Assembly (NCBI GenBank): GCA_021792795.1 | Contig: JAJYUB010000025.1 | Coordinates: 1 to 51,403 of the forward strand | Length of the DNA: 51,403 nucleotides | Direction of reading: 5' to 3' | From: Acidobacteriota bacterium | GTDB lineage: Bacteria; Acidobacteriota; Terriglobia; Terriglobales; Acidobacteriaceae | Shown here: in pieces, positions 5,596 to 8,776 of the stretch | How positions within the stretch are numbered: position 1 is the stretch's first letter | Layout: every line of letters starts with the position of its first letter | Position numbers and translations under genes: made by a program | Notes under the pieces: model-generated | Told to the model about the DNA's origin: nothing | Databases searched by the model: none | What the model saw: only the letters and a program-made list of their open reading frames with translations

Positions 5596-6162
5596 TCAGC
5601 CTCCAGATGCGCGATTTTTCCAGTGGCGCTGATAGTTTTCCAGCGTTGAAAACGTCTGGCTCTGCATGCGATTGATGTAGATTTTTCCATGCAGATGATC
5701 GATCTCATGCTGCAGAATGCGCGCATACCATCCCTTCGCTTCGATGACTCGGGGCTTGCCATGGTGATCGAGACAGGTGACGCGAACCGAGCGCGACCGT
5801 GGAACCTCCGCCATAAATCCCGGCAGGCTGAGGCAGCCTTCAAAAAAGGAAACCTGCGAATCCGAAAGCAGTTCAATCTGCGGATTGATCAGCACGTGGA
5901 AGTCGACGGGCACGCGTTCTCTTTCCTTCAACTCGGCTTCCGTCGCCGCCTTGTGATATTCCGCCCGATCTTCAATCACGGCCAGGTTCAGAGGTTGACC
6001 AATCTGCGGCGCTGCCAATCCAACTCCAGGCGCGTCTCGCAGCGTCTCGCGCATATGCTCAATCAAGTCCTGGATCGCAGGGCTGCAAATGTCTTTCGGC
6101 GCGATCGCACACGGTGTTTGCCGCAACACGGGATGTCCAACTTGAACGATCTTGAGCAGCAT
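5596..6162 (-). CDS. def: Peptide deformylase
   Basis: The 188-residue product has all three peptide deformylase motifs. GVGLAAPQIG is at residues 46-55. EGCLSLPG gives the metal-binding Cys110. QHEIDHLHG gives His152 and His156 with catalytic Glu153. The enzyme removes the formyl group from the initiator methionine of nascent proteins at the ribosome exit, using Fe2+. It is divergent from the leader region of the trans-sulfuration genes. A loop of about 20 residues (around 67-86, charged) between motifs 1 and 2 is somewhat longer than in E. coli Def. Confidence 0.96.
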   Translation of the reverse strand: MLLKIVQVGHPVLRQTPCAIAPKDICSPAIQDLIEHMRETLRDAPGVGLAAPQIGQPLNLAVIEDRAEYHKAATEAELKERERVPVDFHVLINPQIELLSDSQVSFFEGCLSLPGFMAEVPRSRSVRVTCLDHHGKPRVIEAKGWYARILQHEIDHLHGKIYINRMQSQTFSTLENYQRHWKNRASGG

Positions 6163-6225
6163 TTTCCCTGCAATTCTTCCGATCGGACGTGGAGTTCGGC
6201 CATCGGAATCGCATTCTTCCTATGC

Positions 6226-6231
6226 TACAAT
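6226..6231 (+). promoter_or_regulatory. Possible -10 element for the methionine/cysteine gene leader
   Basis: TACAAT at 6226-6231 is a 5-of-6 match to the sigma-70 -10 consensus and lies 40 bases before the candidate leader ORF. No convincing -35 is seen 16-18 bases upstream, so the promoter may need an activator or may be wrongly assigned. Confidence 0.3.
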
Positions 6232-6270
6232 TTAGCAACTTCTTTGGTAGTGGAGTTCTGCCGAGTGACG

Positions 6271-6342
6271 ATGATTCAACTTTCTCGAATGTATATGGCC
6301 ATGCGCGCCCCAGGCGGTCGCAGGCCAGCTTCAGAAGTCTGA
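6271..6342 (+). CDS. Candidate Met-rich leader peptide, 23 codons
   Basis: A short open frame begins ATG at 6271 and ends TGA at 6340-6342. It encodes MIQLSRMYMAM and then a Pro/Gly/Arg-rich tail. Methionine codons fall at positions 1, 7, 9 and 11, a strong local enrichment immediately before a gene for methionine/cysteine metabolism. Codons 13-16 coincide with the 5' arm of a 10-bp stem (6308-6317). A ribosome slowed at the Met codons at 6295-6303 would cover that arm. This is the arrangement of a translation-dependent attenuator, but it is an inference. The ribosome-binding site is weak (GAG at 6263-6265). Confidence 0.4.
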   Translation: MIQLSRMYMAMRAPGGRRPASEV

Positions 6343-6399
6343 GTTGTCCCGCTCAATCTTCATTCTGGCAGCCGCCTGGGGAATTCCCGCCACGGCCAG
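6308..6399 (+). promoter_or_regulatory. Structured leader with mutually exclusive hairpins (attenuator or riboswitch candidate)
   Basis: CCCCAGGCGG (6308-6317) pairs perfectly with CCGCCTGGGG (6372-6381). Inside it, GCCAG (6324-6328) pairs with CTGGC (6365-6369). The same CTGGC can instead pair with a second GCCAG at 6395-6399, enclosing the palindrome GGGAATTCCC (6379-6388). The two folds cannot coexist. No T-run follows, so control would be at translation or through Rho. The leader does not match the SAM-I, SAM-II or SAH riboswitch consensus sequences that I know. Confidence 0.45.
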
Positions 6400-6444
6400 T
6401 TTCTTCCCCGGAACCATTGCACCAGCCTGAATGGAGAGAGTGTT

Positions 6445-7647
6445 TTGAGCGCACCCGATTTAGATATTTCTACCGTCGCGATTCATGGCGGCCGATCGCT
6501 GGACTCTCACGCCAGTTCGATCCTGTTTCCTCTCTACCAGACCAGCACTTTCGTACACGACGCGGTCGGCGTCGACAAGGGATTTAGCTACTCGCGGGTG
6601 TCCAACCCAACTGTGGACGCGCTGGAAAAAGCAATTGGAGCGCTGGAAGGTACGCCTCCGGCCGTTTGCTTTCGGACCGGCATGGCCGCAGTGACTACGC
6701 TGTTTCTTTCCGTATTGAAAGCGGGCGATCACGCGGTGCTGACCGACGTCGTATATGGCGGCACTATGCGCCTGTTTCGCGAAGTGCTGGACCATCTCGG
6801 CATCACCGCATCGTTCGTGGACACTTCCGATCCAGCCAACGTTGAAGCTGCCATCAAGCCAACGACGCGTATTGTTTTTCTGGAGACGCCGGGCAATCCG
6901 ACGCTGAAGCTGACGGACATTGCCGCGGTCGCGGAGATTACTCGACGCCATTCGATTTTGCTGGGGGTCGACAATACGTTTCTGACGCCAGTTCTGCAGA
7001 ATGTTCTGCAACTGGGCGCGGACATTTCTCTGTTGTCGACAACGAAGTACATTGACGGCCATAACGCAACCGTCGGTGGCTCGTTGGCCACGCAGGACGA
7101 GACACTGCTGGAGCGGTTCCGGCTGATTCGCAAGACCATCGGCACCACGCAGGCGCCATTCGAGGCCTGGCTCACATTGCAAGGGATGAAGACGTTGCCT
7201 GCGCGATTGAAACTCCACTGCGAAAATGCAGAGGCCATCGCGCAGTGGCTCGAGAACAATCCAGCGGTTGCGCGGGTTTATTTTCCGGGACTCGCTTCCT
7301 GTCCGCAAAAAGCCTTGGCGGAAAAACAACAGGACGCGGCCGGCGGCATGATTGCCTTCGAGTTAAAGGCTGGCTACGACGCCACCATTCGCATGTTGAA
7401 CAGCGTGCAGCTTTGCTCGCGCGCGGAAAGTTTGGGAGGATTGGAAACTCTGATTACGCACCCAGCTTCGACAACCCACGCCGACCTTGGTCCAGAGTTG
7501 CGGCATACCCTCGGCATCACGGATGGTTTGGTTCGACTTTCGATCGGACTTGAAGCTCCGCAAGATATCATCCGCGATTTGGAGCAGGCATTCGCGGCGG
7601 CCGGATGCGATGCCGAAGCGAAAGAGGTTGACCATGAAGCTCGCTAG
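6445..7647 (+). CDS. Trans-sulfuration PLP enzyme (cystathionine gamma-synthase/lyase type)
   Basis: The 400-residue product belongs to the Cys/Met-metabolism PLP family. It has the substrate-loop YSRVSNPT (about 49-56), FRTGMAAVT (about 76-84), DVVYGGT with the PLP-stacking Tyr104, VDNTF with Asp176, and the PLP-binding lysine in STTKYIDGH (Lys201). The C-terminal RLSIGLE motif is present. Members make or cleave cystathionine or release methanethiol from methionine, and sequence alone does not separate these activities safely. The start is a TTG at 6445 with GGAGAG at 6433-6438. It overlaps the next gene, a paralogue, by 14 bases. The leader suggests control by methionine or a related signal. 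Confidence 0.9.
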   Translation: MSAPDLDISTVAIHGGRSLDSHASSILFPLYQTSTFVHDAVGVDKGFSYSRVSNPTVDALEKAIGALEGTPPAVCFRTGMAAVTTLFLSVLKAGDHAVLTDVVYGGTMRLFREVLDHLGITASFVDTSDPANVEAAIKPTTRIVFLETPGNPTLKLTDIAAVAEITRRHSILLGVDNTFLTPVLQNVLQLGADISLLSTTKYIDGHNATVGGSLATQDETLLERFRLIRKTIGTTQAPFEAWLTLQGMKTLPARLKLHCENAEAIAQWLENNPAVARVYFPGLASCPQKALAEKQQDAAGGMIAFELKAGYDATIRMLNSVQLCSRAESLGGLETLITHPASTTHADLGPELRHTLGITDGLVRLSIGLEAPQDIIRDLEQAFAAAGCDAEAKEVDHEAR

Positions 7648-8776
7648 CCGCTTGGTAAGTTTCGATCCCGCTCCCGGAGATCGCTTCCGCCCCATCTCCA
7701 CTCCGATCTATCAGACCGCGACGTTTGAGCAGGAATTTGCCGACCAGTTTGGCGAATACGATTATTCCCGCAGCGGAAATCCGACCCGCGCGGTGCTGGA
7801 AAAGCAGATTGCATCGCTGGAAAACGGCACGCACGGCTATTGTTTTTCCAGTGGCATGGCCGCCATCACTACCGCGACCAAGTTGCTGCAGAACGACGAA
7901 GAGATTCTCGCCGACAACGATTTGTATGGTGGCACCTGCCGACTGTTCACCAAAGTGCTCAAGCGCACCGGCATCTCCGCGAAATACGCGGACGCGTGCG
8001 ATCTTGAAAATTTCGAGCGACAGATCACGGCGAAGACAAAATTGATTTACGTGGAGTCGCCAACCAATCCATTGCTGCGTGTAGTGGACTTGCGGAAGCT
8101 GGCTGCAATGGCCCATGCCCATGGTGCGCTGCTCTGCGTGGACAACAGTACCATGTCGCCGTATTTGCAGAACCCGCTTGATCTGGGAGCGGATGTTGTG
8201 CTGCACTCCGGAACAAAATTTCTTGGCGGCCACCATGACGTGACGGCTGGAACCATCGTGGTCAAGGACAAGGCACTTGCCGAACAAATTTATTTTGTGC
8301 AGAACGCAGAGGGCAATGCGCTCGCGCCGTTCGATTGCTATCTTCTGCTGCGCGGTATGAAGACGCTGAAACTGCGCCTCGATTGCCAGCAAAAAAACGC
8401 GCAGGCTATCGCGGAGTATCTTGCCCAACATAAAGCGATCCAGCGCGTCTGTTATCCCGGCCTGAAAAATGATCGCGGATATGAGTTGCAGCGTTCTCAG
8501 GCGCGCGGCGCGGGCGCTGTCTTGAGCTTCACGACCGGTTCCGTCGCGCTCTCAAAAGCCATTGCGGAAAATACCAAGCTGTTTCGCATCACCGTCAGTT
8601 TCGGAAGCGTCAACTCATCGATCAGCGTGCCGGGAAACATGTCGCACGCCAGCGTTCCGGCGGAATTGCTGGCGCAACGCGACCTGCCGAAGGACCTGGT
8701 GCGCATTTCTGTCGGCATCGAGGATGAGGAAGATTTGCTCGCCGATCTTGACCGCGCCATCCTGTCCTATCGGTGA
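7634..8776 (+). CDS. Second trans-sulfuration PLP enzyme (cystathionine lyase/synthase type)
   Basis: The 380-residue product is a paralogue of the preceding enzyme. It shows STPIYQTATFEQ, YDYSRSGNPTR (about 42-52), FSSGMAAITT, DLYGGT with Tyr98, CVDNSTMSPY with Asp170, and the PLP lysine in HSGTKFLGGHHD (Lys195). LVRISVGIED ends the fold. A tandem pair of this family fits cystathionine gamma-synthase plus beta-lyase (cysteine to homocysteine) or gamma-lyase in the reverse direction; which is which is not decided here. The ATG at 7634 lies inside the end of the previous gene with GAGG 8 bases upstream, implying translational coupling. Upstream in-frame extension to 7487 would overlap the first gene and is rejected. 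Confidence 0.9.
   Translation: MKLASRLVSFDPAPGDRFRPISTPIYQTATFEQEFADQFGEYDYSRSGNPTRAVLEKQIASLENGTHGYCFSSGMAAITTATKLLQNDEEILADNDLYGGTCRLFTKVLKRTGISAKYADACDLENFERQITAKTKLIYVESPTNPLLRVVDLRKLAAMAHAHGALLCVDNSTMSPYLQNPLDLGADVVLHSGTKFLGGHHDVTAGTIVVKDKALAEQIYFVQNAEGNALAPFDCYLLLRGMKTLKLRLDCQQKNAQAIAEYLAQHKAIQRVCYPGLKNDRGYELQRSQARGAGAVLSFTTGSVALSKAIAENTKLFRITVSFGSVNSSISVPGNMSHASVPAELLAQRDLPKDLVRISVGIEDEEDLLADLDRAILSYR

Follow-up and report, generated by a model that had tools for sequence, protein, structure and literature searches.

A candidate methionine-responsive leader-peptide attenuator upstream of metB and metC in one family of Acidobacteriota

Gene context and leader reading frame

The window (the whole stretch of DNA that we analysed, 51,403 nucleotides of an Acidobacteriaceae genome) carries on its forward strand a metB-type gene for a cystathionine gamma-synthase-like protein (6445–7647, with a TTG start and its best model match below that model's equivalog cut-off), followed by a metC-type gene for cystathionine beta-lyase (7634–8776; TIGR01329, over the cut-off). 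A peptide deformylase gene on the reverse strand (5596–6162; NF001159, over the cut-off) adjoins the leader divergently. Between this gene and metB lies a forward-strand frame of 23 codons, running from ATG 6271 to TGA 6340–6342 (MIQLSRMYMAMRAPGGRRPASEV), with Met at codons 1, 7, 9 and 11 (ATG 6271, 6289, 6295 and 6301); the last three make up a Met cluster at 6289–6303. A first-pass annotation, made from the sequence without database searches, had proposed that this frame and the stem into which it runs form a methionine-responsive attenuator ahead of trans-sulfuration genes. The Met-rich frame, the 10-bp stem and both of the CTGGC:GCCAG pairings that it described are all present in the window. 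The start that it assigned, ATG 6271, does open a frame; however, the true start may be GTG 6265, which is in frame (giving 6265–6342 as the longer possible leader) and is preceded by a possible Shine-Dalgarno sequence, GGAG, at 6252–6255. Among relatives, locus L012 has ATG where the window has GTG 6265, and L008 has lost the ATG equivalent to 6271.

Hexamer matching places a possible promoter at 6203–6231 of the forward strand: TCGGAA (6203–6208), a 17-nt spacer, and TACAAT (6226–6231) with TG ahead of it (TGCTACAAT). At 3 + 5 of 12 matches this candidate is weak on its own, since 19 of 50 shuffles were equally good. Its TACAAT stands at the same distance as the −10 element of those relatives that have TTGACA, and 16 of 43 copies have TTGACA plus a −10 on the 5' side of the leader (L139 and L163 were left out of this count). 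Simple promoter and terminator scans of window positions 6100–6500 returned no promoter-like or terminator-like site. At L122, L159 and L161, TTGACA and the −10 end very close to the leader ATG; with such spacing, transcription may begin on or right beside that ATG, and the leader peptide would then be made from a leaderless mRNA. The 208-nt leader of the window as a whole folds better than 200 of 200 shuffles (z −2.87).

Distribution of the leader and its target genes

Covariance-model searches found the element in 40 of 398 genomes of one Acidobacteriota family (14 of 79 genera), in 15 of 399 genomes of the class, all of them in that family (f1), and in 6 of 396 genomes of the phylum. One of these six lies outside f1 (G1027; 24.4 bits over 66 bases), a doubtful match that we take as chance. 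At the level of the order, a degenerate core pattern matched 13 of 200 genomes, and the reversed pattern used as a control matched none; within the genome from which the window comes, the core pattern minus the stem matches exactly once, in the window itself. A mobile origin was considered and set aside, the plasmid collection being without a match.

Among 23 related metB loci whose upstream sequence was available (L008–L031 without L014; genus assignments are assumed for L009 and L011), 11 carry the leader, down to 59% MetB identity, and 12 do not; the DNA 5' of the leader is not conserved among the 11. Decayed relatives of the leader also occur 5' of metB, with weak model matches at L016 (23.1 bits), L015 (22.8 bits) and L013 (7.8 bits, E 0.82) and no model match at L017. 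By eye, L015 has lost two of the cluster Met codons, and its MetB is 74% identical to that of the window.

The comparisons below rest on 45 copies of the leader. Repeats were dropped by eye (L001, L088, L100, L104, L105, L108–L118, L121, L140–L142, L145, L146, L149, L152 and L157, and the longer stretches L168–L177), as were L144, where the match could not be placed, and L124, a degenerate second copy in G053; near-identical g24 copies were kept, so counts over the 45 do not represent independent events. The second leader at L124 (G053:C1) scores 30.8 bits and precedes a metB-like gene that yielded no long frame. All 45 copies precede genes for steps towards homocysteine and methionine: 42 a metB-type gene, two a metC-type gene (L164 and L167, both in g38, where separate metB copies at L165 and L166 also have the leader) and one a MetB–aspartokinase fusion (L151). 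In this last case (L151/L168, G492:C88), the first MetB residues are fused in frame to aspartokinase, about 300 residues in all, and the gene may be a deletion product. The metB-type frame at L158 breaks after about 70 residues. At L169 (g24) the operon order is metB, aspartokinase/homoserine dehydrogenase, metC, and L172 (g11) looks alike by eye.

Conservation of the Met cluster

The first-pass annotation had suggested aligning the leaders of orthologous genes, and the alignment supports its core idea in both the Met codons and the base pairing. The number of Met codons in the window, taken alone, is no more than mildly unusual (P = 0.012 for three or more Met in 22 codons, with background frequencies from the 16 long ORFs of the window). 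Across the 45 copies, the conserved part of the peptide is the cluster itself, RM-x-M-A-M, with all three Met present in 39 copies and the first, second and third in 40, 44 and 45, respectively. Nine different residues occupy the position between the first two Met. The cluster Ala is kept in 42 copies; the next two positions are variable, and are followed by P (36) or L (9), G (42) and G (45). The Arg codon ahead of the cluster (6286–6288 in the window) is CGA in 41 of 45 copies, whereas CGA makes up 10% of the Arg codons in the window's 16 long ORFs; slow decoding, pausing of RNA polymerase or a constraint of another kind could account for this preference. An in-frame start was found in 44 copies, the remaining one being cut by a contig end, and in 37 of 45 copies the stop codon falls 15 codons beyond the second Met of the cluster. 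Outside the cluster we detected no codon-position bias among the 45 copies (74, 88 and 104 differences at positions 1, 2 and 3) and saw no selection on the peptide, which drifts there; translation is thus supported mainly by the Met codons, the start and the stop. As in classical attenuators, the leader ORF carries conserved codons for the amino acid that its operon serves.

Covarying and mutually exclusive helices

Downstream of the Met cluster, the leader RNA can form an antiterminator-like stem. Region 2 of the window (CCCCAGGCGG, 6308–6317) is the exact complement of region 3 (CCGCCTGGGG, 6372–6381) over 10 bp, and an extension of region 2, GCCAG at 6324–6328, pairs with 6365–6369. Over the 45 copies, 444 of 450 cells of stem 2:3 (45 copies × 10 pairs) are standard pairs. 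Both-sided changes occur at four pairs, some of them altering the encoded residue: pair 1 changes from C-G to U-A (g2), pair 4 from C-G to U-A (g24, g38) or U-G (g36), pair 5 from A-U to G-C (g4, g38), and pair 7 from G-C to C-G and U-G (g38). When the partners were swapped among 18 representatives (17 in one control), 0 of 20,000 swapped sets matched the native one; the extension (segments 2b and 2c) gave a weaker result, 71 of 20,000. An earlier covariation test on 21 copies was weak (two both-sided pairs; 122 of 500 shuffles did as well), owing to the invariance of most pairs in those copies. When the 3' side was shuffled copy by copy, the median z was −2.3, and 15 of 45 copies did better than every one of their 100 shuffles. 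The antiterminator is kept by compensatory changes, as in the classical systems.

Region 1 (6296–6306), which overlaps the Met cluster, pairs with 6319–6327 and neighbouring bases (−19.5 kcal/mol for 6296–6328). This helix 1:2 would provide the classical means of holding region 2 once the control codons have been passed; its register differs between clades, and 10 of 20,000 swaps were as good.

Region 3 can alternatively pair downstream with region 4 (CGGC 6393–6396 or GCCAG 6395–6399), followed by the U-rich tail TTTCTTCC at 6400–6407; folding predicts a weak terminator, with its downstream part at 6384–6407. In the window the 3:4 hairpin has −10.3 kcal/mol (2 of 60 shuffles as good), and an alternative at 6365–6399, 5' of UUUCUUCC, has −12.4 kcal/mol. 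We scored region 3 with the downstream strand, followed by at least five U in nine, and found such a U-tailed competitor of 2:3 in 35 of 45 copies, compared with 16.1 expected from shuffled downstream strands; in just 5 of the 35 did the native hairpin outscore each of its 60 shuffles, and the swap test gave a weak signal of covariation (485 of 20,000 swaps did as well). Strong hairpins of this kind occur at L119, L012, L103 and L107, and the ten copies that fail are L008, L010, L023, L099, L120, L160, L162, L164, L165 and L167. The first-pass annotation had placed the competition in CTGGC 6365–6369, which can pair with GCCAG on either side. Both pairings are real in the window, but the downstream one (6395–6399) is a local form, found in the window and some close relatives and broken in L010; the general competition is that of region 3 with region 4, together with a third helix that the annotation had overlooked.

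This third helix joins the strand immediately 5' of region 3 (6349–6370, which contains CTGGC 6365–6369 and can also pair in part with the region 2 extension) to the metB Shine-Dalgarno region (6424–6443, with GGAG at 6433–6436; −23.6 kcal/mol in the window). It covaries: the paired strands are UCUCCAAUCG with CGAUUGGAGA in L122 and L159, AAAACUCCAA with UUGGAGUUUU in L163, AUCUCCAUUC with GAAUGGAGAU in L012, and AAUCUUCCUG with CAGGAGGAUU in L101. Among the 18 representatives, the mean energy is −16.9 kcal/mol for native partners and −12.3 for swapped ones, with 0 of 20,000 swaps as good, and in 39 of 43 copies (L164 and L167 left out) the native helix beats the cross-genus mean. Five control segment pairs were negative. 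Weak cases include L019 (−7.4), L160 (−10.2; both g4), L023 and L162. In the minimum-energy fold of the window the Shine-Dalgarno helix encloses the 3:4 hairpin, and being nested, the two can form together. Helices 1:2 and 3:4 and the Shine-Dalgarno helix are thus mutually compatible, and all of them compete with 2:3 and its extension. Pairing of the Shine-Dalgarno sequence in the repressed fold is one of two traits expected of translational attenuators, the other being its release when the leader ribosome stalls.

A model of control by methionine supply

We regard it as likely that the leader is an attenuator in which the ribosome senses methionine supply, and that it acts on both the transcription and the translation of the metB-metC operon. 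With charged Met-tRNA plentiful, a ribosome would pass the Met cluster and reach the stop codon, where it would cover the 3' part of region 2, and helix 1:2 would re-form behind it. Region 3 would then pair with region 4 as a terminator and the adjacent upstream strand with the metB Shine-Dalgarno sequence, leaving the operon OFF. With Met-tRNA short, the ribosome would stall at 6289–6303 and cover region 1; with region 3 and some of the strand 5' of it captured by region 2, terminator formation would be prevented and the Shine-Dalgarno sequence would be free (ON). Since the terminator is weak in the window's genus, blocking of the Shine-Dalgarno sequence is probably the main effect there. The Met codon is also the start codon, so that a lack of methionine could act on the leader both by stalling and by hampering its initiation.

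A ribosome protects about 15 nt past its P site. Placed so that its A site holds the first or the second Met of the cluster, it would cover region 1 and end at about the start of region 2. We folded 42 copies under such ribosome masks (equilibrium models; L164, L167 and L147 left out). Mean 2:3 pairing was 0.66 with the first-Met mask and 0.63 with the second-Met mask, compared with 0.28 with no ribosome and 0.38 with a ribosome at the stop; mean exposure of the Shine-Dalgarno sequence was 0.25, 0.21, 0.11 and 0.15, respectively. This predicted release is modest: compared with a ribosome at the stop, stalling leaves the sequence freer in 32 of 42 copies, by more than 0.2 in nine, and less free by more than 0.2 in two. 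On average the models support the proposed mechanism. The window itself fits poorly: 2:3 pairing is 0.14 under the first-Met mask, 0.99 under the second-Met mask and 0.21 with no ribosome, but reaches 1.0 when a ribosome sits at the stop. The missing difference would have to come from the order in which the RNA folds as it is transcribed, which equilibrium models leave out.

Alternative readings of the leader

The first-pass annotation had drawn the opposite polarity, with a ribosome slowed at the Met codons blocking the first fold (2:3 with its extension) and favouring the second, and hence with termination when methionine is short. Its two CTGGC:GCCAG pairings do exist in the window, but a ribosome on 6289–6303 falls short of 6324–6328; it sits over region 1, with 6308–6328 wholly or mostly free, and thus should favour the first fold, the antiterminator. 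The masks over the cluster likewise raise mean 2:3 pairing rather than lowering it, and the operon for methionine synthesis would be shut just when methionine is scarce. We consider the polarity to be reversed and give the original version next to no credence. More substantial is the idea that each leader acts on one level only, purely translational in the window's genus and purely transcriptional in others, with the other helix idle. By our test the terminator is weak or absent in 2 of 4 g1, 4 of 10 g4 and 3 of 4 g38 copies, and the Shine-Dalgarno helix is weak in some g4 copies (L019, L160); against this, most copies of g24, g30, g11, g36 and g44 have both helices together, nested and able to form at once, which makes a single level of control unlikely on the whole.

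Two further readings concern what the reading frame itself does. The MTO1 region of plant cystathionine gamma-synthase is a nascent peptide that senses methionine or SAM in the exit tunnel, and a peptide with CGA-Met-x-Met-Ala-Met could do likewise, stalling the ribosome on excess; the leader would then be a bacterial counterpart of MTO1, on the same enzyme. The conserved core R-M-x-M-A-M-x-x-(P/L)-G-G and the CGA kept ahead of the cluster in spite of its low use elsewhere would suit such an arrest, yet P has become L in 9 of 45 copies and G has become A or V in 3 of 45, changing along with the RNA pairing, and no amino acid constraint is seen in the rest of the peptide. We judge nascent-chain sensing to be quite improbable. 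If the leader were instead a riboswitch or a protein-binding RNA, never translated, the frame would arise incidentally from conservation of the RNA; helices do contain much of the conserved sequence, and CGAATG is conserved at the nucleotide level. This reading leaves unexplained, however, the retention of an in-frame start and of the stop distance, as well as the first cluster ATG, which is kept in 40 of 45 copies outside the described helices while the codon that follows it varies freely; moreover, no Rfam family matches. It seems to us more improbable still. The combined attenuator thus stays our preferred reading, and the covariation supplies defined base changes for testing it.

Relation to known leaders and riboswitches

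Across the whole window, no Rfam family, including T-box, amino acid leader and SAM riboswitch families, matched at its gathering score, in agreement with the first-pass statement that known SAM riboswitch sequences are not matched. A weak SAM-SAH match (11.8 bits; gathering score 40) lies at 6599–6642, inside the metB-type gene, and was rejected. SAM-I was found in 74 of 150 genomes of the family, and none was found in the window's genome. The idea that the leader has taken the place of SAM-I at one and the same gene is unsupported: the loci read have SAM-I before a different gene, and SAM-I occurs elsewhere in 6 of the 18 genomes that carry the leader, all six in g4. Among loci L125–L138, the gene behind SAM-I was read in 7 of 8 loci of one set and 6 of 6 of another, and by its translation it looks like threonine synthase, an unusual target for this riboswitch, and tblastn returned no match to metB or metC at the SAM-I loci examined.

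Like the first-pass annotation, which knew of no Met leader peptide of this form, our literature search gave no description of a methionine leader peptide or attenuator among the matches listed; many subscription papers and all bioRxiv preprints lay outside the search, and absence from print is unproven. The attenuators listed in one account are those for His, Leu, Thr and Trp in Rfam, plus Ile/Val and Phe, and methionine is not among the specificities listed there (PMC3766115). In Actinobacteria, cysteine leader peptides place Cys codons before sulfur genes; the report on them describes no conserved terminator hairpins in Mycobacterium and saw no conserved RNA structure before methionine operons of Actinobacteria (PMC1262725). 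Those leaders share with ours a leader ORF with codons for a sulfur amino acid ahead of sulfur genes, and differ in that the codons are for Cys. SAM-I likewise places methionine genes under RNA control, and two reports describe a form in Xanthomonas that also senses uncharged initiator tRNA (PMC7270179, PMC6230763).

With the classical attenuators (his, leu, thr, trp, ilv and phe) the present leader shares control codons in a leader ORF, an antiterminator with a predicted alternative terminator fold, and an operon that matches the codons; unlike them, it adds a helix that would block the Shine-Dalgarno sequence of the first gene and has no Rfam leader match. In translational attenuators of the ermC type, a ribosome stalled on the leader frees a paired Shine-Dalgarno sequence, with an antibiotic as the signal. 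The release of a Shine-Dalgarno sequence by a ribosome stalled on a leader ORF would be the same here, whereas the signal would be amino acid shortage and a predicted terminator is combined with it. The leader is most likely a methionine-specific member of a class of attenuators already described for other amino acids, in which termination and ribosome binding would be controlled together. If this is true, adjoining segments of one RNA strand would let a single leader control both.
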